IMG/VR virus record: IMGVR_UViG_3300007554_000010
Location: 1-34,240 of that record
From: a virus
Reading direction: 5' to 3' (one strand)
DNA: 34,240 nucleotides
Shown here one piece after another: positions 573-32,234 of this stretch (the stretch's first letter is position 1; each line of letters begins with the position of its first letter). The notes below the pieces were generated by a model. It had not been told where the DNA came from. It saw only the letters and a program-made list of their open reading frames with translations, and ran no database searches. The position numbers and the translations under genes are program-made.

Positions 573-917
573 TTAAAGGCCAGCAAGAGGATCATCTCCT
601 CCTTCTTCTTCTTTTTTCTTAGCTTCTTCCTCTTCAGTTTCTTTAGCAGTGACTTCTTCTAAATAATCATTAAAATACTTTACTAAAGATGCTATATCGG
701 CTTCTGTGAATGCTGTCATGCTGTATTGATTATAGAAATAATCTAAAAATTCATCTTCTGATTCACAAGATACCATTGCTCCTACGATTTCAGTTGATTT
801 AATTTCTAAACCACTATCACATGTATAATCATCTACAGTAACCTTAGAATCTTTAGGTGTCATTGCTTCTTCTTTTAAAGATTCAATAAATTCTTCGTAT
901 AATTTGATTCTTTTCAT
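573..917 (-). CDS. Small acidic prohead-core-like protein (gp67/gp68 position) with capsid-targeting-like N-terminus
   Basis: A 114-residue protein between portal gp20 and protease gp21, where T4 encodes the prohead core proteins gp67 and gp68. The N-terminus, MKRIKLYEEFIESLKEEA, has the [LT]-[FY]-[EQ]-x-F pattern followed by an L-x-E site. That is the layout of T4 internal-protein targeting peptides cut by gp21. The C-terminus is very acidic (EEEE, EEE runs) and ends in DDPLAGL, echoing the portal's C-terminal DPMGGLGF. A role as a scaffold/core component degraded during head maturation is inferred from position and composition, not from a clear sequence match. It sits 17 bases after the gp20 stop and is probably co-transcribed with it. 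Confidence 0.6.
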   Translation of the reverse strand: MKRIKLYEEFIESLKEEAMTPKDSKVTVDDYTCDSGLEIKSTEIVGAMVSCESEDEFLDYFYNQYSMTAFTEADIASLVKYFNDYLEEVTAKETEEEEAKKKEEEGGDDPLAGL

Positions 918-12999: not shown

Positions 13000-14199
13000 T
13001 TAAAATAATGATGTTGAATAAATTAAGTTTCTGTTTAGTGTTTGTAATCCAACTGCAACCAGAACTCGATTCAATGGATCAATAACACTCTTTTCAAATT
13101 GAGTTTCATAATCGATTTCAGGTGCAATTTCGTATGGGTGATCGCCTGGCATATATGCAAACATATCACTAAGTGCATGCTTACAATGATACAACTTCAA
13201 TTTCTCTCCGTTACCAATCATCTTATATTTGTTTTTATATTTAGGTGATTGATTCATTAAGTAATTGTAGAATCCAGCCGCCTTCACGTTAGGAGGACAT
13301 TTAGATCCAATCTGGAATTCAATTGTATCGTCAACAATATATTTTTCAATATTGTTTGTACGTTTATTAAACGAGATCTGATCGATATCTGCAAGCACGA
13401 ATTCTTTCTTACCTTTCTTTAGATAATCAACCAGTTTTTTAAGAAGAGAAGCTGTTGGTTTTTCAGATAAAACAATCTTAATAGCTTCGGTCAAGTGTTT
13501 ACGTGCAAGAGCTGGTGTTGAAGATTGAATAGTATCAAATCCAATTGTTTTAATCTTTTTAAGGGTTGGATATCGGTCATCAATATCTAATTTATCTTCC
13601 CATGCAATGTTTTGCAAATACTTTTTCTTTGCCAACCAGATTCCAGAGTATGCGATTGTTTCCAATTCAAATACTAAGAAGTTATCCGTATTCATTACTT
13701 GAGCATACTTCTCCATTGCTTTTACAATATATTCATTCAATCTGAATTTGTAAAGCTTCATAATGAATTGGTCAATTGACATTGATTCTCCGAGCCATTG
13801 AATAGATTCATACATTTCTTCAAACTGAACGTAACATGAATCTGTATCAATGTAAACAACTGCTGGTTTTACAGGAGCTTTAGAGACTTTAATGTTAAAA
13901 TATTCATGCACTTGAGTATCTTTAATCCAGAAGTCTTGAAAATATTTGTTTAAGATCTTCTCAGAATAGAGAATAGCGCTTTGACCTTGAAGGGTAATTG
14001 ATTCAGCAATATTAATATTAAAGAAATGGAACCACTTGTTACCGAATGCACCATAGATCGAGTTCAATGTAACTTTAACTGCTTGTTCATAAGCAGTATA
14101 TTTGGCACTCATAGTTTCATAATAATCTATGAGTGCCTTCATTTCTTGAGCCGTTAATTCTTCTTCCGGCTTATTAATTAATTGTTGAATATCTGTCAT
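13000..14199 (-). CDS. 43B: DNA polymerase gp43B (C-terminal piece: palm motifs B and C, thumb)
   Basis: A 399-residue C-terminal piece of a family B polymerase. It has motif B in KVTLNSIYGAFGNKW, motif C YIDTDSCYV with the catalytic aspartates, a KKKYLQ motif and the thumb. It ends in STSLF, a plausible clamp-binding tail. Exonuclease and motif A are missing; they lie in gp43A at 18129-19535, about 4 kb upstream in transcription. I chose the ATG at 14197-14199, one base after the gp45 TAA. A longer start at 14226 would overlap gp45. The break falls in the fingers between motifs A and B, where some T4-like phages (such as Aeh1) also split gp43. The two parts are expected to assemble into one enzyme. 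Confidence 0.92.
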   Translation of the reverse strand: MTDIQQLINKPEEELTAQEMKALIDYYETMSAKYTAYEQAVKVTLNSIYGAFGNKWFHFFNINIAESITLQGQSAILYSEKILNKYFQDFWIKDTQVHEYFNIKVSKAPVKPAVVYIDTDSCYVQFEEMYESIQWLGESMSIDQFIMKLYKFRLNEYIVKAMEKYAQVMNTDNFLVFELETIAYSGIWLAKKKYLQNIAWEDKLDIDDRYPTLKKIKTIGFDTIQSSTPALARKHLTEAIKIVLSEKPTASLLKKLVDYLKKGKKEFVLADIDQISFNKRTNNIEKYIVDDTIEFQIGSKCPPNVKAAGFYNYLMNQSPKYKNKYKMIGNGEKLKLYHCKHALSDMFAYMPGDHPYEIAPEIDYETQFEKSVIDPLNRVLVAVGLQTLNRNLIYSTSLF

Positions 14200-14200
14200 A

Positions 14201-14953
14201 TTATTCAGCTGTTTCGCAAGTTGCAATCGTTAGTAATGTTTCTGAGTCTAGTGAACGCAGAACTACTCGATTTGCCAACACGTGAGCTGTATAATCTTCT
14301 TTATCAAGAAGGTTCAAGTATTTTTTGAATAGTGTAACTTTGGTTCCTTGTTGTCCATCATAATCTGGAGTAACCAACATGTTGTAAGTAGAACCTGTCA
14401 ACTTAACACCTTTACCATTTGCTTCGATTGAGAATGTTTCTTCTTTATCCAAACCAAAGAGTGATTTAACCTTAGTAATGGTTGTGAAATCCATGTCGAA
14501 TTTGCAAGATGCTCCGTCAGTATTGAAGATACCTTGGATTTGAGTGTCTGTCAAATCTTTGTAACCCAATGAAGGATCTGAACATGCCAATGTAATTTCC
14601 AATTCGTCATTGAAGATGCGGAATGTAGTTGCTACGAAATCTTCTTCATTCTCAATAAATGAAATTTCTGCTTGAATTGAATCATACTCAAATTGCTTAA
14701 AAGCTTCTGTCAATTTAGAAGCATCAAAGAAAGCAACTTTAAGTTCTTTTGTTACCTCTGTCATGTTTTCAATTTGAAAAACTTGAGTAAGAGGAATTCG
14801 GTGGTGCTTTACGGCATCACGCTGTGGAAGATAAGCCGAAGAGATAACAATACCGTCTTTGATCTTAAAATACACAAATGAATCGATCAATTTAAGACGA
14901 TTCACAAAACCAATAAAATTATTTTGGTCTACTTTGTTGATTGTAATATTCAT
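14201..14953 (-). CDS. 45: Sliding clamp gp45
   Basis: 250 residues (T4 gp45: 228). The protein shows the two-domain beta-alpha-beta pattern of phage clamps, with a T4-like N-terminus (LKLIDSFVYFKIKDGIVIS). Later segments include LFGLDKEETFSIEANGKGVK and the final LRSLDSETLLTIATCE strand. The trimeric clamp tethers gp43 to DNA and also activates late transcription through gp55/gp33. It is the first gene after a terminator, driven by a TGAAAC-N17-TATAAT promoter 25 bases upstream, and is followed at one base by gp43B. Confidence 0.9.
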   Translation of the reverse strand: MNITINKVDQNNFIGFVNRLKLIDSFVYFKIKDGIVISSAYLPQRDAVKHHRIPLTQVFQIENMTEVTKELKVAFFDASKLTEAFKQFEYDSIQAEISFIENEEDFVATTFRIFNDELEITLACSDPSLGYKDLTDTQIQGIFNTDGASCKFDMDFTTITKVKSLFGLDKEETFSIEANGKGVKLTGSTYNMLVTPDYDGQQGTKVTLFKKYLNLLDKEDYTAHVLANRVVLRSLDSETLLTIATCETAE

Positions 14954-18128: not shown

Positions 18129-19535
18129 CTAAGATATTAACTTAATCTTTTTCTTCAAATGATCTGCTTTACTGAAATAATCATACGATATTTTCTTATA
18201 TTGTTTCCTCTGGTCGTACAGATCTGACAATATTTTTTTTAAGATTGAATCTTCTTTTTTGTACACTACACCATTATCGCATACAATTACATCTTTATCT
18301 TTTCGACGTTCTTTTATTTGATCTCCAAATACTTGTTCAACATAAGCATCTGGTGAAATATTAAATTGTCGCATGATTGAGGGGTATAGAGATGCAAAGT
18401 CAAATGCTGTAACACCTTCATAAAATCCAACGTTTGGTTCTTTAACAAATGCTCCTACATATTGTCCATCTTTTTGGCCATCTTCGCGTTGTTCTGACGC
18501 AATTCTCATGTTTTGTTCTGCCAATTTTCTAGCCATAAGGGCTTCAGTAACTGCCACTGGCGAACTAGCTTTATAGAGTGGCATTTTCGTAATGTTTGCA
18601 AGCGTCATAATTACTTCCATTGATTTAAGTTTTTGGTCAATATAATAAACCAACACAGAGTCAACTACGTTGTAATAAACATACTTAGTAAAGTTGTCTC
18701 TATAGAGATCCTGGAGTGATCCTGTGTATTTAATCTTATTTAGATTAAGAACTTGTCCAGAAACATAATCAAGTGAATTAGACTCTTTTACTTTAACTGT
18801 GCGATCATACTTATCATACAACTGCATGTAATCGAGAATACCCATGTGGAGTGGACGGCTATCTGTTTTGTCCAAGCTTTGGGTCATGCTTGCATCAGAA
18901 ATATCAATCTGTAGGCGTTTGCAACGGTTAACAATATATTGCCAGTCATAGTTGATAAAGTTCCATCCTGTCATCATTGGAAATTTAGGCATAAACTTCA
19001 TTAAGAAAGTGTATACCATATCATATTCACTCTTAAACTTGTGATATTTAAATTCCCAATCCGTATTTAATGATTTAAAATACTCATTAGTATCGTCTTC
19101 AATCTTTTTAATCTGATCCGCCGAAAGATCTTCTAATCCAAGAACAATTGCCTTACGCTCTGGGGTAATAATTGAAAAGGTTAAGATGCGTGATTTAGCT
19201 TCTTCAGCTTTAGGAAAACCATCAACAATCTCAGTCTCAATATCGACAAAGTATGTACGTGGCATATTGTACGCTAAGATCTCTTCACGATCACGCTCTG
19301 GTAAACCATCAATGAAATATACTAGTGAGAATTTATTAAAGTTACGAGCAGGACCTAATTTAATAGGCCTGCCGTCCCAATTGCGGTATTGATGACTAAC
19401 ACCGCGCTCTTTAGCATCGCAAATATACCAATTTTTAAATTGATCAATTGGGTATTGTTTAAATGCGACATTTCCTTCTTTGTCATAGTATGAAACTATA
19501 ACATCCTTATCTCGTTGTTCAATATCTAGAATCAT
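18129..19535 (-). CDS. 43A: DNA polymerase gp43A (N-terminal piece: exonuclease and palm motif A)
   Basis: 468 residues of a family B polymerase. The 3'-5' exonuclease motifs are YFVDIETE (Exo I), GWNFINYDWQY (Exo II) and YYNVVDSVLVYY (Exo III, YxxxD). Polymerase motif A is AFDFASLYPSIM. The protein stops shortly afterwards in the fingers helix (LYDQRKQYKKISYDYF to KKKIKLIS). Motifs B and C are in gp43B at 13000-14199. It is followed by its own terminator, so the two pieces are made from different transcripts. There is no intein-like N-terminal Cys/Ser block at the break, and no homing endonuclease between the parts; instead nrdB, nrdA and gp45 lie between them. It overlaps the dUTPase gene by one base. 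Confidence 0.92.
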   Translation of the reverse strand: MILDIEQRDKDVIVSYYDKEGNVAFKQYPIDQFKNWYICDAKERGVSHQYRNWDGRPIKLGPARNFNKFSLVYFIDGLPERDREEILAYNMPRTYFVDIETEIVDGFPKAEEAKSRILTFSIITPERKAIVLGLEDLSADQIKKIEDDTNEYFKSLNTDWEFKYHKFKSEYDMVYTFLMKFMPKFPMMTGWNFINYDWQYIVNRCKRLQIDISDASMTQSLDKTDSRPLHMGILDYMQLYDKYDRTVKVKESNSLDYVSGQVLNLNKIKYTGSLQDLYRDNFTKYVYYNVVDSVLVYYIDQKLKSMEVIMTLANITKMPLYKASSPVAVTEALMARKLAEQNMRIASEQREDGQKDGQYVGAFVKEPNVGFYEGVTAFDFASLYPSIMRQFNISPDAYVEQVFGDQIKERRKDKDVIVCDNGVVYKKEDSILKKILSDLYDQRKQYKKISYDYFSKADHLKKKIKLIS

Positions 19536-24774: not shown

Positions 24775-25323
24775 TCAGAGTCTAGTATCTAGATTAACAT
24801 TATTCATATATTTTTCACGCATAGCATATAACTCTTTATCCGCGTGTTTAATATTTTGCATATCCTTCTTTTTCATCTTGGCTAAAACCTTAGCGATAGC
24901 ACCATCAGCTATTCTCATTAGTTTTTCAGTAGACTGCAATCTAGATTCTAATTTAACCTTGCTAACATACGCCTTAAGTGTATCATTCTCCTGACCAATT
25001 TCATCCATCATACCAATTAACTCTTCTTCTAGATCTTCTAGGAGTTTAATTTTATCTTCATGTGGATTATCATCATTTGATCTATGAGATCTAGAAGATG
25101 TATATGAGTCTGATTTATCCTCTAATTCGTTTTCAAAATCTTCAATCGGATCACCCTCAAGTTTTAATTTACCAATATCAACTCTAGTTGCCGTCAATTT
25201 AGCTGATAATTGATCCAATTTACGTTTTTGAGCAGGATTTTTAAATAAACCTTTTAAAAAACTAAATAACCCTTCATCTAATTGAGAGCTATTAAAGCTT
25301 TCGAACGTTTGGATATATTTCAT
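24775..25323 (-). CDS. Putative head-packaged protein with capsid-targeting-like N-terminus (182 aa)
   Basis: The N-terminus MKYIQTFESFNSSQLDEG has the TFExF targeting-like pattern, followed by L-D-E/G, a fitting gp21-type cleavage site. After it comes a short hydrophobic/basic segment (LFSFLKGLFKNPAQKRK), an acidic serine-rich stretch (DKSDSYTSSRSHRSNDD) and a long helical, coiled-coil-like region to the end. Function is unknown. It is the last gene before the terminator at 24719. If the targeting reading is right, the protein would enter the prohead core, lose about 17 residues during maturation and could be ejected with DNA. Confidence 0.65.
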   Translation of the reverse strand: MKYIQTFESFNSSQLDEGLFSFLKGLFKNPAQKRKLDQLSAKLTATRVDIGKLKLEGDPIEDFENELEDKSDSYTSSRSHRSNDDNPHEDKIKLLEDLEEELIGMMDEIGQENDTLKAYVSKVKLESRLQSTEKLMRIADGAIAKVLAKMKKKDMQNIKHADKELYAMREKYMNNVNLDTRL

Positions 25324-25330
25324 TTTATTA

Positions 25331-26911
25331 TTATTTGATTGTCATATCAAATGGTAAATCTTCTGGGCCATAGTATCCATCGTCCATGTGTAGGCCGTAC
25401 CATTTTCTACCGTCGGTGAAATAGAACCAACCATGAACTGGATCGTGAACTACATCAAATGGTCTTTGCCATAGTTCAAATTTAACTGGCTTTGCTTTAC
25501 CACGAGCTAAATACTTTAATACTGGAACATCATCATCCCACATTTGAGTAGTTGTAGTTGCAGTAATTGTAGCAGATTTGCCTTTTAGTTTTGCTGTATA
25601 TAATTCACCAGCAATTTCATCAGCTAATTTCTGAGAAGCAGATTCTGTAACAATTGATTCAGCCGCTAATTCAGCGTCCACATCTTTAATGCTAACTGCT
25701 GCATCTAATTCAGCTTCAAGCTTTTTCTTTTGTGTAGTTAAATCTTTTAATTTAGCAAGTAATTTATCTTTATCTTTACCTTCAGCTTCTTTCCAAGCGT
25801 CCACGGTAACTTTCATATCTGAAGTAATTTTACCCCAATCTTTTTGGATTTTGTTGATTGAACGAGCTTCATTAACTTCGGTAGACTCATTAACTTTCTT
25901 CTTTAAGTACTTATTAGGCTCTCTAAGAATAAACTCTTGTGAATCGCCATCAACTCTAGCAACTACATCGCCATTTGATTTGATATCGGTAATTTCAACA
26001 GTCTTGTTTCCATCGACGTGTTTCCATTCCCATTTGTCGCCGGCTTTGAATTTAGCTTCATTAACCACCGATTCTGCTAATTTAGAAAAGAAATCTTTAG
26101 CTAATTTATTATATTCTTTCTTTTCATCGTTATCTAGATAGCGTAATGATTTTGTATAATTATATTTTAAATCTTCAAAATAATTCTTTGCACCTTTACC
26201 TTCATTAACCACTGATTCAGCCAATCTCATCTCAAGCTTGTTTCTCTTAGCAATAAGCTTTTGAATCTCATCTTCAATCTTGTTTAGCTGATCGCCATAT
26301 TCATCGGCAATTGGACCACCTTCAGCTTCAGCCTCTTCTTCCATATCGATTAGCATTTGACCTCTATCAGAATAAAGATCTTTTAGATCTTGGCTAATAT
26401 CCCATAGATCATCTTCAGCTTTTAGTCTCTCTTTACCGTAAAGTGGCTTACGCTTTGGTTTAGCAAGCTCTTTTTCGCGCTTCATTTTAGCAGCTCTAAA
26501 AGCCATTAAAACAGGATCGTTAAGATCTGATTCTGTAATTAATGACTCGCTAAAAAATGCTTCAAAAGTAGGAATAAATGATGTTTTCATTTCTTTAATT
26601 TCTTTTTCATCTTCGTCTTCTTCAGATTTTCTACCCTTTGGTATATCACCTGATCCAACTTCAGTTTCGGTTGGGAATGAAATGTCTCCCATTCCTCCAA
26701 TATTTGACGGTGTAATATTTTCAGCAACTTCAGGTAAACCTTTATGCGGAGTAGATGCAAAGTCTTTAAGATCCTTTAGTGACATACCGTCAACCAACTC
26801 TTTAACTTTATCTCTATAAGCCGCATCAACGTCAGAAAGTTGCATATCGCCAGATTTTACGGCGTATGCAACTCCCATTAAACGTTGTTGTGATTTACTA
26901 GTGCTTGGCAT
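25331..26911 (-). CDS. Modular DUF3008-like protein with repeated protease-site cassettes (526 aa)
   Basis: Residues 1-60 (SKSQQRLMGVAYAVKSG ... DFASTPHKGLPE) match a small phage domain I know as DUF3008. Around residue 108 comes an internal MKTSFIPTFEAFFSESLITE, a targeting-like segment with its own ATG. After that the protein is a chain of different short modules separated by near-identical cassettes: AESVVNEG (231-238), AESVVNEA (279-286), VNESTEVNEA (340-349) and AESIVTES (417-424). Each ends in V/I-x-E followed by a small residue, the gp21 cleavage layout. The final module (about 425-526) is aromatic-rich (VHGWFYFTDGRKWYGLHMDD). I infer a polyprotein of head-packaged peptides; no enzymatic motif is visible. 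Confidence 0.7.
   Translation of the reverse strand: MPSTSKSQQRLMGVAYAVKSGDMQLSDVDAAYRDKVKELVDGMSLKDLKDFASTPHKGLPEVAENITPSNIGGMGDISFPTETEVGSGDIPKGRKSEEDEDEKEIKEMKTSFIPTFEAFFSESLITESDLNDPVLMAFRAAKMKREKELAKPKRKPLYGKERLKAEDDLWDISQDLKDLYSDRGQMLIDMEEEAEAEGGPIADEYGDQLNKIEDEIQKLIAKRNKLEMRLAESVVNEGKGAKNYFEDLKYNYTKSLRYLDNDEKKEYNKLAKDFFSKLAESVVNEAKFKAGDKWEWKHVDGNKTVEITDIKSNGDVVARVDGDSQEFILREPNKYLKKKVNESTEVNEARSINKIQKDWGKITSDMKVTVDAWKEAEGKDKDKLLAKLKDLTTQKKKLEAELDAAVSIKDVDAELAAESIVTESASQKLADEIAGELYTAKLKGKSATITATTTTQMWDDDVPVLKYLARGKAKPVKFELWQRPFDVVHDPVHGWFYFTDGRKWYGLHMDDGYYGPEDLPFDMTIK
26057..26219 (-). repeat. DNA-level repeat encoding the ESVVNE cassette
   Basis: TTCATTAACCACTGATTCA (plus-strand reading) occurs at 26201-26219 and exactly again at 28555-28573 in another gene. 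A 17/19 match is at 26057-26075. All three encode ESVVNE in the same frame. Near-identical codons in two genes suggest recent shuffling of the cassette rather than only protein-level convergence. Confidence 0.75.
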
Positions 26912-26920
26912 ATTTAAATA

Positions 26921-27259
26921 TTATTCTGCAGAAGCTTGAGCAGCTTTAGCAGCAGCTTGAACAACCTTAGTATATAATCCAAATACCTGGCCAATTGTCA
27001 TACCATCTTTCCAAGTAGCTACAGTTTTATCACCTAAAACAATATCACTTCCGTCAAAATATACTTGTCTAGGTAATTTATCAGCACCTGACGCAATTTT
27101 GAAAAGTTTTTGAGTAGGATAATCACCTAAGTATCCAGAATATGAGAATTTGTTATCAGCATTAGCTTGAATATATTTCATTGCGTTTGCTGGTGAAATT
27201 TCTCTAGCTTCATTAACATTCGATTCTACGAATTGTTCAAATAATTTTACGTGTTTCAT
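26921..27259 (-). CDS. Putative head-packaged protein with capsid-targeting-like N-terminus (112 aa)
   Basis: I chose the ATG at 27257-27259 because it gives MKHVKLFEQFVESNVNEARE, matching the N-termini of several neighbours; the longer in-frame start at 27313 overlaps the upstream gene. LFEQF is followed by V-N-E/A, a likely gp21-type cut after about residue 17. The mature part (about 18-112) is a small alpha/beta domain (YIQANADNKFSYSGYLGD, QVYFDGSDIVLGDKTVATWK) ending in an alanine-rich helix. No function is recognised. The segment before the ATG is similar to that before the internal start in the 671-aa gene. Confidence 0.65.
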   Translation of the reverse strand: MKHVKLFEQFVESNVNEAREISPANAMKYIQANADNKFSYSGYLGDYPTQKLFKIASGADKLPRQVYFDGSDIVLGDKTVATWKDGMTIGQVFGLYTKVVQAAAKAAQASAE

Positions 27260-27306: not shown

Positions 27307-29322
27307 TTACCAAGCGTAATCCATATCTTTTACTTTCTTCACTTTATCAGAAACGTATTTAGCATATTGCTTGGCTTCTCTTTCATAGTAGCCTGAAGAA
27401 TAACCTCCTGCTTTTTCTTTCTCAACGTTTACCATGTGTGAAACATATCTATCATAATCGCTTAAGATACCTGACATCATATTAGATGCGTCAGTAAGTT
27501 TAATCTCTTGACCGCGGCTGTTTTGACCAATTTTAATTTCACCATATTTAGTCTTTTCACCTGATTTAAGTGCATTAGAGATTTGCTTAGTTAATTCATT
27601 AATAGCATCTTCAACCATTTTATCTAATGGTAAGCTAGAAGCTTTAGTTGCTAAAATATCTCTATATCTTTGTGTGTTTGCTTTCTTAAAGTCAGCTGCT
27701 GATGTGAACGCAATTGCACCAGATTTAGCATCAGATCTAGATTGAATAAGATCCCTTGAAGATTCACCACCTGTATTAATGTTAAATATAATTGCTCTAT
27801 CAGCTAATTCAGCCGCTCTCTTGATTGAAGCAATACCTGATGCATCGTAACCTCTATATACTTTATTTCCACCAACTGTGGTGCTGCCGTCTGATTTACC
27901 AAGAGTGTATTGGTTCTTTTTATTAACGTTAGGTGTTTTTGCATATCCCTTATAATCAACTCCTAAGAAATCTTTACCTCTTGAAAGAGCTAAAATACCA
28001 GGACTTAAAATTGGTTGTCTATAAGAAGATCGATCTGCATACGGATTTTCCTTTTCATTATCTACAATATAGAATACTAAATAGTCTCTATTATTTGCAT
28101 AAGTTTTGTATGCTGTATTTGCATCTGTATCAACTAATGCAGAATCTTCAATTTGATCAAGTTTGATTTTAGTTAAACCATAAATGGCAGATGCTAGATT
28201 CTTAGTACCGTACCAGTTTGCATCAACACCAGAATTTTTCATAGCCAATAAGTTTTGTAACTTAGAAGACTTAAATGCTTCATTTAATGGTCTGAATTCT
28301 TCAACAATTTGAATTGATTCTTCAATGTATTCTGCTAATTCCTCATCGCACCATCCATAATCACAATCAGCTAATACATTTTCAAGATCTTTTCTCTTAC
28401 CTTGCATTACAATGACTGGGTGACCTCCACCTGGACCGTCCATCATTTTATCAATGATAGTAACCTTATGCTTCTTTAAGAATTTTAAGAAGTCTTTGTC
28501 ATCTGGATCCATTGCGTCCATTTCAACAGTTGCTTCAAATAATTGCTCATTCTCTTCATTAACCACTGATTCAAACGCTGGAACTAATTCTCTATCACCA
28601 TAAACATCTACCATGTACCATTTCTTATCTGATTCATCGTATAAGTAAATATATTCAGCACCGCCGTCATTAGCAGCTAATTTAATAAACTTATCCATGT
28701 CTGATTTTTTACCAGCCATTGGAGCTCTACCATCATTGTAGAAGTTCATTTTATCAAGAGCATCTAATCCTGAGTTATCACCCTTTGCAATAACATCTTG
28801 AATTGCTTTTGCATTTTTATAATTCTTCTTAATTGTAGGAAGCATATGCTCTGGGTAAGAATCGTAGTGGGTATAAACTGACTGGATGTTACCTTTTTTG
28901 TCGATGATACCGAATTGACCTCTTGTACCTTCATTAATCATTTCAGTATTTTCATTCAATGAACCAATGAATTCTGAGAATGATTCAAATACAAAGTTCT
29001 TTTTCATTTGATTATTTTCGTTTATTTTGATTTGATTTAAAATTCTTGCTCCAAATTTAGATAGGGTAATACCATCCTCAGAAACGTTAAAATATTTAGA
29101 GTTACGTCTCATCCATCTGGTAGAATCAGTAGAAAGCTCAGAAAGAATCTGATTAAATTCTTCTTGAGTCATTGAGCCATCAGCAATTGCTTCAAGCATT
29201 TTGTTTCTAATACGAGCCTCCTTACCTGCTGTAAGAGCTGGATAGTTTTCAGTGTAACGTCTTTTAAATGTTACTTTATTTTCATTTAATCTATTTGATT
29301 GATCAAAATGATTCTTTTCCAT
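27307..29322 (-). CDS. Large modular protein with internal targeting-like segment (671 aa)
   Basis: Residues 1-105 form a helical module (NENKVTFKRRYTENYPALTA ... SEDGITLSKFGARIL). Residue 106 begins MKKNFVFESFSEFIGSLNEN, a complete targeting-like segment with a possible internal start at 29007, followed by INE/G at 129-132. Next come a GTRGQFGIIDKKGNIQSVY module (about 132-250), the FESVVNEE cassette (250-257), a module with MDGPGGGHPVIVMQGKRKDL (about 270-335), and after FRPLNEAFKSSKL a 320-residue C-terminal region containing IIFNINTGGESSRDLIQSRS. I recognise the modules only as recurring phage segments of unknown role. A polyprotein of injected or core proteins is the best inference. Confidence 0.7.
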   Translation of the reverse strand: MEKNHFDQSNRLNENKVTFKRRYTENYPALTAGKEARIRNKMLEAIADGSMTQEEFNQILSELSTDSTRWMRRNSKYFNVSEDGITLSKFGARILNQIKINENNQMKKNFVFESFSEFIGSLNENTEMINEGTRGQFGIIDKKGNIQSVYTHYDSYPEHMLPTIKKNYKNAKAIQDVIAKGDNSGLDALDKMNFYNDGRAPMAGKKSDMDKFIKLAANDGGAEYIYLYDESDKKWYMVDVYGDRELVPAFESVVNEENEQLFEATVEMDAMDPDDKDFLKFLKKHKVTIIDKMMDGPGGGHPVIVMQGKRKDLENVLADCDYGWCDEELAEYIEESIQIVEEFRPLNEAFKSSKLQNLLAMKNSGVDANWYGTKNLASAIYGLTKIKLDQIEDSALVDTDANTAYKTYANNRDYLVFYIVDNEKENPYADRSSYRQPILSPGILALSRGKDFLGVDYKGYAKTPNVNKKNQYTLGKSDGSTTVGGNKVYRGYDASGIASIKRAAELADRAIIFNINTGGESSRDLIQSRSDAKSGAIAFTSAADFKKANTQRYRDILATKASSLPLDKMVEDAINELTKQISNALKSGEKTKYGEIKIGQNSRGQEIKLTDASNMMSGILSDYDRYVSHMVNVEKEKAGGYSSGYYEREAKQYAKYVSDKVKKVKDMDYAW
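28555..28573 (-). repeat. Second exact copy of the ESVVNE-encoding 19-mer
   Basis: TTCATTAACCACTGATTCA, identical to 26201-26219, lies in frame in the 671-aa gene and encodes the junction between two modules at residues 250-256. Confidence 0.75.
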
Positions 29323-29358: not shown

Positions 29359-30351
29359 TTACGCTTTAACCTTAACTTGAATACTTCCTCCAGTCCAAGA
29401 TGAAATTAAAGTTTCACCAACATTGCTGGAAATATTGTCTTTAAATAATACTCCACCAAACTTTTTGCTAGAATTTGTTTGTACAAATACAAACTTTTCT
29501 TTAATTGAGCCAAAACCAGCAACTAAATCTCTTTCAATCTCAGAATAAGATTTTAATTGAATTTGATTCTGACCAGATATCATATTTTTAATAGCTTGAA
29601 TGGTTTTATTATTTGAGATAGATCCAATTTGTTCTCCACCTGTTTTAGAAACAATTAATTCTCCTTCTGGGGAGAGTGACATACTAAAAGTTAATGGTGA
29701 TGTTACAATTACTGGATCAAGATCCTTAACAATATTAAGGAATTTTGCGCCTTCATCTCTTGCAACTTTATTCTGAATATCTTTACCTTCAGCTGTATTT
29801 GGATTTAATTCTGGTAAAATATCCTTTAAACCCATATACAGATTTTTCAACTCTTGTTTGGCAGTTTCAATAATTGATCTGTGCTTAGCACCAGTTCTCC
29901 AGCCGTAAAGATATCCATCCTTACTTGTCTTAACCTCTTTACATTCTGCTTGGTCTAAAATTCCACCATTATCATTATAAAGCGTTAAATCAATATCAAC
30001 TGAACCACCGCCAATACCGCAGTTTTCAATAATATAGGCCATCATAATTTCGCCGCGGCCAATACCAACTACATCAGCTCCTAAATTAACTAGAGTAGTT
30101 GCTGCACCTTTATTACTAGAAAGAATCTTATTTACTTTAGCCATATTAGCTGAAGAAAAAGAATCTAATTTAATTCTCTGGAATGGCGCTTTACCCTTAA
30201 ATTCATTAGTATTAATTAAATTGTATAACATCTCCTTATCATTCTTATTAGAAGATTGGGCTAATGCCATATAATTTCTTTGAGAGCTTTCATTAATCTG
30301 ATTATTTAAAGCTCCTTCAAATCTGGTTCTGATGTCATTAAAATCTGCCAT
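29359..30351 (-). CDS. Putative PD-(D/E)XK-fold protein in the head-protein block (330 aa)
   Basis: 330 residues. E101 in GRGEIMMAYIIEN, D119/D121 in SVDIDLTLY and E136-C-K138 in AECKEVKTS give the E...D...ExK order of PD-(D/E)XK nucleases with normal spacing; GWRTGAKHRSIIETAKQEL follows as the next helix. The N-terminus FNDIRTRFEGALNNQINESS has an I-N-E/S site that could be a maturation cut, but not the full F-E-x-F pattern. It would be a candidate DNA-cutting protein, perhaps acting on host DNA early if packaged. Catalytic activity is unproven. Its start codon overlaps the stop of the 627-aa gene upstream. Confidence 0.6.
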   Translation of the reverse strand: MADFNDIRTRFEGALNNQINESSQRNYMALAQSSNKNDKEMLYNLINTNEFKGKAPFQRIKLDSFSSANMAKVNKILSSNKGAATTLVNLGADVVGIGRGEIMMAYIIENCGIGGGSVDIDLTLYNDNGGILDQAECKEVKTSKDGYLYGWRTGAKHRSIIETAKQELKNLYMGLKDILPELNPNTAEGKDIQNKVARDEGAKFLNIVKDLDPVIVTSPLTFSMSLSPEGELIVSKTGGEQIGSISNNKTIQAIKNMISGQNQIQLKSYSEIERDLVAGFGSIKEKFVFVQTNSSKKFGGVLFKDNISSNVGETLISSWTGGSIQVKVKA

Positions 30352-32234
30352 TATCCTTTTAATTTATTCATGAATTGTTCGAATGTCATTAAACCTTCTG
30401 GTTGTACTTTAGAAGCATTAACCACTGACATTGACTTTTCTAATTCTGATTTTAATGTTGGATACATTTTATGTAATGCTTTAGGTGTCATTAATTTGAA
30501 AGACTTTTCGTCCCCATCTAACATTGCATTACGTACTTTAGTTGCTGAAATAGCTTCATCATCTCTTGGGATTTCATATAGAGCAAAATCAGATCTAACA
30601 TTTAATTGATCCCTGTATGAATCGTTATTAACTTGGTATCCATAAGCCTGCATTCTATCAGTTCCTGTTCCCCATAGAACTGGCTCGTATTTTGGTCTTA
30701 GTGCATTAAACATCTGGTCAATTGCAGCACTTGGAAGAACAATGATCTCCTTTAAGAATTTATACTGCTTCTGAACCTCTTTAAACATTTTGACCTGTAA
30801 ATCTTCTGAGTATGGTCTTGAAAATTCATCACCTTTCTTTTGTGTCTTAGACTTAATTAAGAATACAATTACATCATGCCCATTTTGCTTGTGAATTGTC
30901 TCTAACACTTTAGCGTGGCCCAATGTAAACGGTTGGAAACGGCCAACAAAAATATTTACAGGCTCTTTGCCTTGCTCTGTGTGATTAACCTTTAGTGCCT
31001 CATTTAAATCCATACTCGATACAATTTTATTATGTAACATAAAATTATTGAAATCATAAATTGAGAGATTATCATTCATCTCCATTAGGACGACTCCATT
31101 AATTTTTTCAATTGTGCTATTTAAGTTTTCAATCATATCATCTGTTAAAATATCAGATGCTTTAGTACGCTTTTTTCTGAATGAACCTACTGTAATTTTA
31201 AATAGTTCAGAAAGAATTTCATTTGAAACGTACTTTAATGTTTTTTCATTCTTGATAAAATTAGTATTTAATCTAAATGAAGGTGCATGTGCAAAATCAG
31301 CACTTTCAAAATTAACACCAATATATTTAGAAGAATTCTTTTGAATATAATCGTTAAATACAACTGACATTAACTCAATGTATCTTTCATCAGCCGATGA
31401 TTCCATTAGTTGAATCTCAGAAAAATCGTATGTTGAAATATATTCTAATAAATCTGCAATTGTGATTTGATAAATATGAGAACTCTCTCTATTTTCAATA
31501 ACCAGCTGTCTTGCAAAATCTTCTAACTTGAATGAATGAATCTTCTTACCTTCTGCAAAGTTTAAAATAAGTCCATCAATCTCTTTTTCAAGATTCTCTT
31601 GTAACATTGATTTAGTTGCATTTGGATTAAAGATTCTATAAATCTCTTTAGTAAAAGAAACCATTTTATCCGTTTCTTCTAAATAGTCATAATTGCTAGA
31701 GAATTCTTTTGAATTCATTTGCAATAATTTAACCAATTTATCTTTTTGTTGTGAATCCATAATACCATCAAAAACCGGCTCTTGAGATTGAACATCAAGA
31801 ATTTTAGCCCATTTTTTAATGATTACTGGATCAATGATAGTTTTCTTTGAATTACCGTTTTCAGTGATTTGTTGAATATGTGTAAGAATTAAATTATTAT
31901 ATGGTAATTCAGTATATTCGTAATTTGAAACTTTTAATTCTGGTAAATAATCAAAACCAAATTTAAAATCAATAGGCAATTTAGCTTTAGCTTCTGTTGA
32001 TAAACTCTGCATGTGTTTAATAGCAACCTCATAAAGAGACATCATAGTACGATCTACCATTGTAAGCTTTTCTCCATTTGAAGATTTATAGAATTCGAAC
32101 TTATCATTAATTCGACGAACATAAAAAGATGGTGCTGAAATTTTTTCAACAACCATTACTCTATTATCAAGCATTCCTACGAATGTATTGATGTTGGTCT
32201 CTTCAAAATGTTGTTTTAATTTTTTAAGTGCCAT
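30351..32234 (-). CDS. Large protein with C-terminal HxGH nucleotidyltransferase domain (627 aa)
   Basis: Residues 1 to about 415 are unrecognised, largely helical. From about 428, VNIFVGRFQPFTLGHAKVLE carries the HxGH-type motif of NMN adenylyltransferases and related enzymes. FLIKSKTQKKGDEFSRPYS follows, and ISATKVRNAMLDGD (about 560-573) is the ISSTxxR motif. The GRFQPFTLGH form is closest to the NadR/NadM-like and cytidylyltransferase group, so NAD synthesis or a related nucleotidyl transfer is possible. The last residues, GLMTFEQFMNKLKG, resemble the TFEQF targeting motif of neighbouring proteins but at the C-terminus. It lies two bases after the ligase-like gene and overlaps the PD-(D/E)XK-like gene. 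Confidence 0.75.
   Translation of the reverse strand: MALKKLKQHFEETNINTFVGMLDNRVMVVEKISAPSFYVRRINDKFEFYKSSNGEKLTMVDRTMMSLYEVAIKHMQSLSTEAKAKLPIDFKFGFDYLPELKVSNYEYTELPYNNLILTHIQQITENGNSKKTIIDPVIIKKWAKILDVQSQEPVFDGIMDSQQKDKLVKLLQMNSKEFSSNYDYLEETDKMVSFTKEIYRIFNPNATKSMLQENLEKEIDGLILNFAEGKKIHSFKLEDFARQLVIENRESSHIYQITIADLLEYISTYDFSEIQLMESSADERYIELMSVVFNDYIQKNSSKYIGVNFESADFAHAPSFRLNTNFIKNEKTLKYVSNEILSELFKITVGSFRKKRTKASDILTDDMIENLNSTIEKINGVVLMEMNDNLSIYDFNNFMLHNKIVSSMDLNEALKVNHTEQGKEPVNIFVGRFQPFTLGHAKVLETIHKQNGHDVIVFLIKSKTQKKGDEFSRPYSEDLQVKMFKEVQKQYKFLKEIIVLPSAAIDQMFNALRPKYEPVLWGTGTDRMQAYGYQVNNDSYRDQLNVRSDFALYEIPRDDEAISATKVRNAMLDGDEKSFKLMTPKALHKMYPTLKSELEKSMSVVNASKVQPEGLMTFEQFMNKLKG

Follow-up and report, generated by a model that had tools for sequence, protein, structure and literature searches.

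In phage T4, the prohead protease gp21 cuts after L/I-X-E, and in the ten-residue targeting peptide residues 4 and 7 serve targeting and residues 8 and 10 processing (PMC9026906). The internal proteins IPI-III and Alt are small, diverse packaged modules that carry a motif of 10–20 amino acids with F at P4 and [ILV]-x-E at its end, and are cut by gp21 after this Glu (PMC9026906, PMC3012670); the internal proteins have one module per gene and one N-terminal cut. Several cuts in one chain are also known. Specifically, cleavage of T4 gp22, gp67 and gp68 gives several fragments (PMC9026906) and propeptides of SPN3US and phiKZ are cut several times (PMC5694885, PMC10052503), the pieces being scaffold or propeptide debris that is mostly cleared from the head. 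Polyvalent proteins, in turn, combine several unlike domains in one chain with extensive mosaicism; they are believed to be packed into the head and delivered along with the DNA, and the authors who described them compare them to polyproteins (Iyer et al. 2017, PMC5512222). They carry enzyme domains, which, where the chain is processed, are thought to be released by the protein's own embedded metallopeptidase (PMC5512222).

Here we consider a 526-aa protein encoded in a fragment of an uncultured marine T4-like phage; "the window" denotes the whole stretch of DNA that was analysed, 34,240 bases with 34% G+C. From comparison of sequences, we regard it as likely that this protein is packaged as a cargo precursor and that the prohead protease cuts it, giving about six products. 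It recalls the T4 internal proteins and Alt in a targeting-type motif, which here lies inside the chain, and in small diverse modules that would be packaged and cut after Glu; unlike the internal proteins, the chain holds several unlike modules, its internal sites are targeting-deficient, and recombination has occurred at these sites. As in gp22, gp67, gp68 and the SPN3US and phiKZ propeptides, the prohead protease would cut one chain several times, but the pieces look like folded cargo domains rather than debris, and they also exist as separate genes. The initial annotation held that T4 internal proteins are cut once and that a multi-cut precursor would be new. This overstated the case, since core proteins and propeptides are known to be cut several times; the arrangement that it proposed is nevertheless supported in outline. 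In the open-access literature we found no account of a prohead protease cutting a mosaic cargo polyprotein with several unlike, shufflable modules, and one that is cut at remnants of targeting sequences appears to be undescribed.

Polyvalent proteins are the nearest idea, sharing the several unlike domains per chain, the extensive mosaicism and, if our reading is correct, the packaging. In contrast to them, no effector-enzyme or metallopeptidase domain was found here, the modules are tiny, and a head-maturation protease would process repeated sites. The 526-aa protein would work like a polyvalent protein and is not classed as a member, because Pfam recognises DUF3008 alone in it (and no family in most of the long polyproteins related to it) and PADLOC matches no anti-defence family, searches that a divergent domain could escape. 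The proposed arrangement also resembles the polyproteins of eukaryotic RNA viruses and retroviral Gag, in that one precursor with repeated short sites would be cut by a viral protease during particle maturation. It differs from them in that there is no homology, the virus is a double-stranded DNA phage, the products would be cargo and not core machinery, and the sites seem to derive from targeting peptides.

Cassettes and modules of the 526-aa protein

The reading frame was confirmed on the minus strand, with an ATG at 26911 and a stop at 25331, and the repeated cassettes that had first drawn attention to it are where they were reported, ending at SESLITE↓127, AESVVNE↓237, AESVVNE↓285, KKVNE↓342, STEVNE↓348 and AESIVTE↓423 (the arrow marks the cassette end). 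There are six [VIL][NT]E triplets in this protein against a mean of 0.79 in 5000 shuffles, none of which reached six, and the tighter form S-x(1-3)-[VIL][NT]E occurs six times against 0.13 in shuffles. Across the window, the cargo-type proteins hold 18 triplets per 2124 aa and the remaining genes 24 per 8587 aa. The looser pattern [VIL]-x-E occurs 13 times in the protein, six of these being the cassettes and the others lying inside modules, so accessibility must matter for any cutting. The gene recurs unchanged in another contig (L001), and a third (L002) matches it over the first 207 aa, which rules out an assembly artefact. A simple sequence repeat or a single duplicated domain is likewise ruled out, as the modules are unlike and only the joints repeat. 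The DUF3008 domain at the front of the chain scores 40.2 bits against a Pfam cut-off of 24. A V-x-E just past this domain is kept in 23 of 25 distinct DUF3008 proteins, with K, V, A, P, D, G or E at P2, and E64 is probably a seventh cut site.

Table 1. Features of the 526-aa gene and of related genes in the window
Feature	Coordinates	Strand	Basis or remarks
Putative mosaic cargo polyprotein gene (precursor), 526 aa	25331..26911	-	ORF; identical gene in L001; modules shuffled in relatives
DUF3008 domain, residues 4-61	26729..26902	-	Pfam PF11450, E 3.8e-10
P1 Glu64 codon, probable extra cut site (V-x-E) just past DUF3008	26720..26722	-	comparison
Internal capsid-targeting-like sequence MKTSFIPTFEAFFSESLITE, residues 108-127, ending in first cassette	26531..26590	-	equivalent place in relatives
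M1, residues 128-237, 110 aa, helical, ends in AESVVNE	26201..26530	-	found after other [x]NE joints in L003/L004, L005, L007
M2, residues 238-285, 48 aa, ends in AESVVNE	26057..26200	-	missing from relatives
M3, residues 286-348, small beta domain, ends in VNESTEVNE	25868..26056	-	standalone copy in L170; predicted beta strands
M4, residues 349-423, helical, ends in AESIVTE	25643..25867	-	16 distinct internal upstream contexts
M5, residues 424-526, alpha/beta domain	25334..25642	-	standalone copies in L010, L089; AlphaFold
671-aa polyprotein of like kind; cassettes 124/131 SLNE..MINE, 256 FESVVNE, 348 FRPLNE	27307..29322	-	
Single-module neighbour, N-terminal MKHVKLFEQFVESNVNE↓A	26921..27259	-	
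Single-module neighbour, N-terminal MKYIQTFESFNSSQLDE↓G, DUF7201-like	24775..25323	-	
Small acidic core protein with targeting sequence, T4 gp67/68 position	573..917	-	
Cytidylyltransferase/NMNAT-like protein, ends in targeting-like motif MTFEQFMNKLKG	30351..32234	-	

A scan of IMG/VR with the whole protein retrieved 27 loci and three further scans raised the number to more than 160; one locus-gathering scan used a composite query, a typical targeting sequence joined to M4, for retrieval only. The relatives are mosaics: the modules recur in different combinations in polyproteins as long as about 1075 aa. Among 945 complete, non-redundant ORFs, 77 proteins from 65 loci have at least two internal ES..[NTSD]E cassettes, the longest of these proteins being 1075 aa. 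M1 is preceded by SESLITE here, by STSKEAVNE in L003 and by FFEGKVNE in L005 and L007, and in L083 it starts one residue later, after FDSFLNEA. Relatives join M1 directly to M3, and M2 has so far been found only in this protein. M3, which here follows LAESVVNE, is a complete 69-aa gene in L170 (3663-3872; MKKVKLYEDFVNE↓SKFKVNDT). Likewise M5, which here follows AESIVTE, is a 119-aa gene in L010 (8634-8993; MKHIKLFESFINE↓MDSDAAITLAD) and a 105-aa gene in L089 (8681-8998; MKHIKLFEAFVNE↓SAIDALAS), and lies mid-chain in a 720-aa protein of L003. Standalone M3 and M5 start directly behind a targeting sequence: in these single-gene copies, the classic N-terminal form (MKHIKLFE-x-F-[VI]-NE↓) ends exactly at the position equivalent to the cassette end. 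Elsewhere, one polyprotein (L010:5467-7983) contains a tandem module duplication (..VNEAVNASAFIKAGKLGYND.. / ..VNEAVNPAAYVKAGKLGYND..), and the same module is a separate gene with an N-terminal targeting sequence in L009. No relatives of M1–M5 were found among 50,697 annotated phage records. For the M5 fold, Foldseek against the PDB gave no match at E≤0.001, and the best VIA-align Z was 3.2, mostly to SH3b-like chains, which is not interpretable. Most modules could be assigned no function, a point that weighs against the reading as cargo.

Structure prediction had been proposed as a check on whether the cassettes fall in linkers, and for four of the five joints the models place them in low-confidence, linker-like stretches. 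The full-length AlphaFold model has a mean pLDDT of 55 from a thin alignment of 14 rows, and low pLDDT is a proxy for disorder only; it falls below 50 at residues 54–143, 234–245, 342–349 and 410–526, so the joints at 127, 237, 342/348 and 423 are predicted to lie in poorly ordered regions. The joint at 285 sits at the end of a predicted helix of middling confidence and is not clearly a disordered linker. Residues 410–526 are uninformative in the full-length model because M5 has no aligned relatives there, and a separate model of M5 (8 rows; pLDDT 91) replaces them; in it the cassette is outside the predicted fold and the first helix starts two residues past the cassette.

Targeting sequences, joints and the prohead protease

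An N-terminal motif of the targeting type occurs in 222 unique ORFs of the related loci, with the consensus MKHIKLFEQFINE↓ followed by A, G or S. It closely resembles the T4 targeting peptide, MKTYQEFIAE↓A, in which residue 7 corresponds by position to P4, residue 8 to P3 and residue 10 to P1. When sites are chosen by the triplet only, Phe stands at P4 in 72% of N-terminal and 8% of internal sites. Since Phe is mostly missing at P4 of the internal sites and the processing residues are kept, the cassettes look like targeting sequences minus the targeting residue, and the comparison supports the view that they descend, in shortened form, from targeting sequences that stood at the N termini of formerly separate genes. 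The initial annotation had likened them to the segment before the predicted cut in single-domain neighbours, and they prove to be the positional equivalents of this N-terminal targeting and cleavage sequence. Each polyprotein tends to retain one complete motif. Here the T4-type internal-protein motif MK-x-F-E-x-F-[ILV]-x-E, N-terminal in the neighbours, is internal (M108-KTSFIPTFEAFFSESLITE-127), with counterparts at the equivalent place in L010 (MKHLKNFESFVNE) and L009 (MKHVKTFESF). In the DUF3008 proteins of L012, L077, L187 and the cultured phage S-SCSM1, a similar motif forms the C terminus.

The joints were also examined as recombination boundaries. All complete ORFs of at least 60 aa were compared pairwise and non-collinear homology starts were collected, after merging boundaries that lay close together and removing redundancy at 85% identity. 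Of 579 starts at 35% identity or more, 204 fall at [VIL][NT]E; positions drawn at random from these proteins would give 63, and none of 1000 simulations exceeded 88. At 65% or more, the figures are 100 of 214 against 25. This is three to four times chance, with counts that are indicative, since relatedness among the sequences makes the events non-independent. The permuted triplet [NT][VIL]E gave a slight excess at 35% or more (23 against 15 expected) and little or none at 50% (12 against 10) and 65% (5 against 5). The reversed triplet, in turn, gave a modest excess at boundaries, which counts against the reading as a cut precursor. An earlier test with loose settings gave a weaker signal than the stricter version.

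Furthermore, when anchors are picked downstream of the joint only, leaving the upstream residues free, a consensus emerges. Glu occupies P1 in all 16 distinct contexts of M4, in all 37 of the module that ends the neighbouring 671-aa polyprotein and in all 13 of the GRAF module, while P3 is V, I, L or M in 16/16, 37/37 and 12/13, against background frequencies of 9% for Glu and 21% for VILM. P2 and P4–P8 vary across these contexts; before M4, P2 can be N, D, V, S or T. Registration by pattern is ambiguous for the TLKR and M5 anchors, and the EMDAMDPD module has no Glu at the tested position; the consensus draws on none of these three. The gp21-type cleavage consensus [L/I/V]-x-E is present after the motif, as LITE↓S at 127, and at the internal cassettes; P3 is V-rich here while the T4 consensus is stated as L/I, a point that again counts against cutting as we propose it. 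Taken as sequence patterns, these results support the conclusion that the cassettes mark module boundaries and that the joints follow the T4 gp21 rule with a free P2.

The window ends before the expected position of gene 21, and the protease was read from related contigs. Six of 13 carry the major capsid gene gp23, and the same six carry the gp21 Peptidase_S77 domain (PF03420), which forms the front of an ORF of about 620–720 aa whose remainder is coiled coil and acidic, a protease-scaffold fusion. In T4, genes 21 and 22 are separate, whereas the two are fused in one reading frame in L029-L034 and L204:21724-23622. In L031:1-1908 (minus strand), the acidic portion of this fusion also contains the GRAF..FDGKTYPVTVKE module otherwise found in the cargo polyproteins. 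Over 41 kb of the 462-kb phage LR756500 (portal 59% identical), the protease-scaffold fusion is present but no such polyprotein.

In the mechanism that we favour, the precursor would be drawn into the prohead scaffold core through its one intact targeting motif, at residues 108–127. The gp21-homologue prohead protease, scaffold-fused in relatives, would then cut after the cassette Glu at 127, 237, 285, 342/348 and 423, and perhaps at 64, releasing about six small modules of about 50–110 aa, the size of mature T4 IPI. The expected products are 1–127 (perhaps split at 64), 128–237, 238–285, 286–342 or 286–348, 349–423 and 424–526. These would remain in the head with the DNA and would probably be ejected into the host. 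After gene fusion, most cassettes would have lost the targeting Phe and retained the processing residues, and joints that are protease sites would allow the phages to gain, lose and exchange cargo modules within a single reading frame.

Alternative readings and wider occurrence

It is possible that the cassettes are uncleaved linkers and recombination joints, and that an intact multidomain chain is packaged like the uncut polyvalent proteins. The fusion origin of the cassettes is well supported, the N4 virion RNA polymerase is packaged uncut (PMC5512222), and two cassettes of the gene have a 13-nt stretch, GTGGTTAATGAAG, in common, so that DNA homology could guide recombination. Nonetheless, we consider this reading improbable: a mere scar would drift, yet P1 is Glu in 66/66 and P3 aliphatic in 65/66 contexts while P2 and P4–P8 vary, a protease of such specificity acts in T4-type proheads, and it is the targeting Phe that was lost at internal sites and not the processing residues. 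It is hardly credible that the ORF is artefactual, or that it consists of decaying fused genes which share no function. The confinement of M2 to this protein would fit it, but an identical gene in another assembly and 77 non-redundant multi-cassette proteins in 65 loci, with frames open up to 1075 aa, would not.

Two further readings are unlikely. The precursor may work in the scaffold core like T4 gp22, gp67 and gp68, its pieces being mostly expelled, with no injected cargo; the T4 core proteins are indeed cut several times and mostly removed (PMC9026906), and the GRAF-type polyprotein module found within the scaffold part of the L031 protease-scaffold protein points the same way. Against this, the modules are mutually unlike and predicted to be folded (pLDDT 91 for M5), their single-module versions carry the N-terminal motif used in T4 for internal proteins that are retained and ejected, and the DUF3008 protein of S-SCSM1, though without appended modules, is annotated as a virion protein. 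The gene might also have a dual start, with its second half made separately from the internal ATG at residue 108. Most relatives have an internal Met before the motif, the A-rich DNA upstream of the Met resembles that upstream of other genes in the window, and T4 gp21 has an internal start (PMC9026906); on the other side, the genome offers no Shine-Dalgarno-like signal to test, L187 lacks the Met, and the Met may be a fusion relic only. A dual start is in any case compatible with a packaged precursor cut by the prohead protease.

It is also worth considering the cultured cyanophages. NMNAT-like proteins occur in cyanophage virions, and in S-SCSM1 mass spectrometry identified 45 virion proteins including NMNAT, some of them possibly carry-over (PMC9602691). 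The annotation of S-SCSM1 lists the syntenic DUF3008 and NMNAT proteins, and those beside them, as virion proteins. Six cultured cyanophages likewise have a mosaic neighbouring protein, with a module beginning RTRYAKETGKD (RTRFAKETGKD in one) that is preceded by ELDE, ELDE, QFDE, SIYE, ELDE and ELYE, so that P1 is again Glu and P3 aliphatic or aromatic. Because these phages have a similar layout, the arrangement is testable now. In Kyanoviridae (L205-L209, L028), mosaic structural proteins with joints at [LIF]-x-E lie beside DUF3008/cytidylyltransferase genes.

We hesitate over a more general proposal, to which we give roughly equal weight for and against: that a marine T4-like clade, perhaps including cultured cyanophages, stores injected proteins as exchangeable cassettes in polyproteins cut by the prohead protease, with the head protease as the releasing enzyme and the targeting and cut peptide as the recombination joint for cargo capture. 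Were this true, T4-like head maturation would not only clear scaffold but would also release numerous small packaged proteins from a single precursor, operating much as RNA-virus polyproteins do, and it would provide a natural template for placing several cargo domains in T4-type heads. It would also provide a rule for candidate injected proteins of marine phages, most of them now nameless, as those that follow [FY]E-x-F-[ILV]-x-E or are flanked by [VIL]-x-E cassettes.

Other genes of the window

The window also holds a portal gene (935-2533) and genes for recombination, replication, ribonucleotide reductase and a split polymerase, the names being taken partly from reading of the sequences. 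The small acidic core gene has the portal gene on one side and, in relatives, the protease gene on the other. The 671-aa polyprotein ends in a module with 37 distinct internal upstream contexts, all ending in [LVI]-x-E, and no relative of this conserved module was found in bacterial genomes; the module at residues 132–244 of the same protein (phrog_1987) has its relatives (E about 1e-9) in prophages of Streptococcus, a long way from marine phages. For the single-module gene at 26921-27259, the start was set at an internal ATG because the listed TTG puts the motif 18 residues in, and the counterpart of the DUF7201-like protein is fused into a 741-aa polyprotein in L026. Relatives of the NMNAT-like protein likewise end in a targeting-like motif, which suggests that this protein may be targeted from its C terminus. 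The DNA polymerase is apparently split in two genes (18129-19535 and 13000-14226, minus strand), between which sit nrdA, nrdB and a sliding-clamp-like gene.
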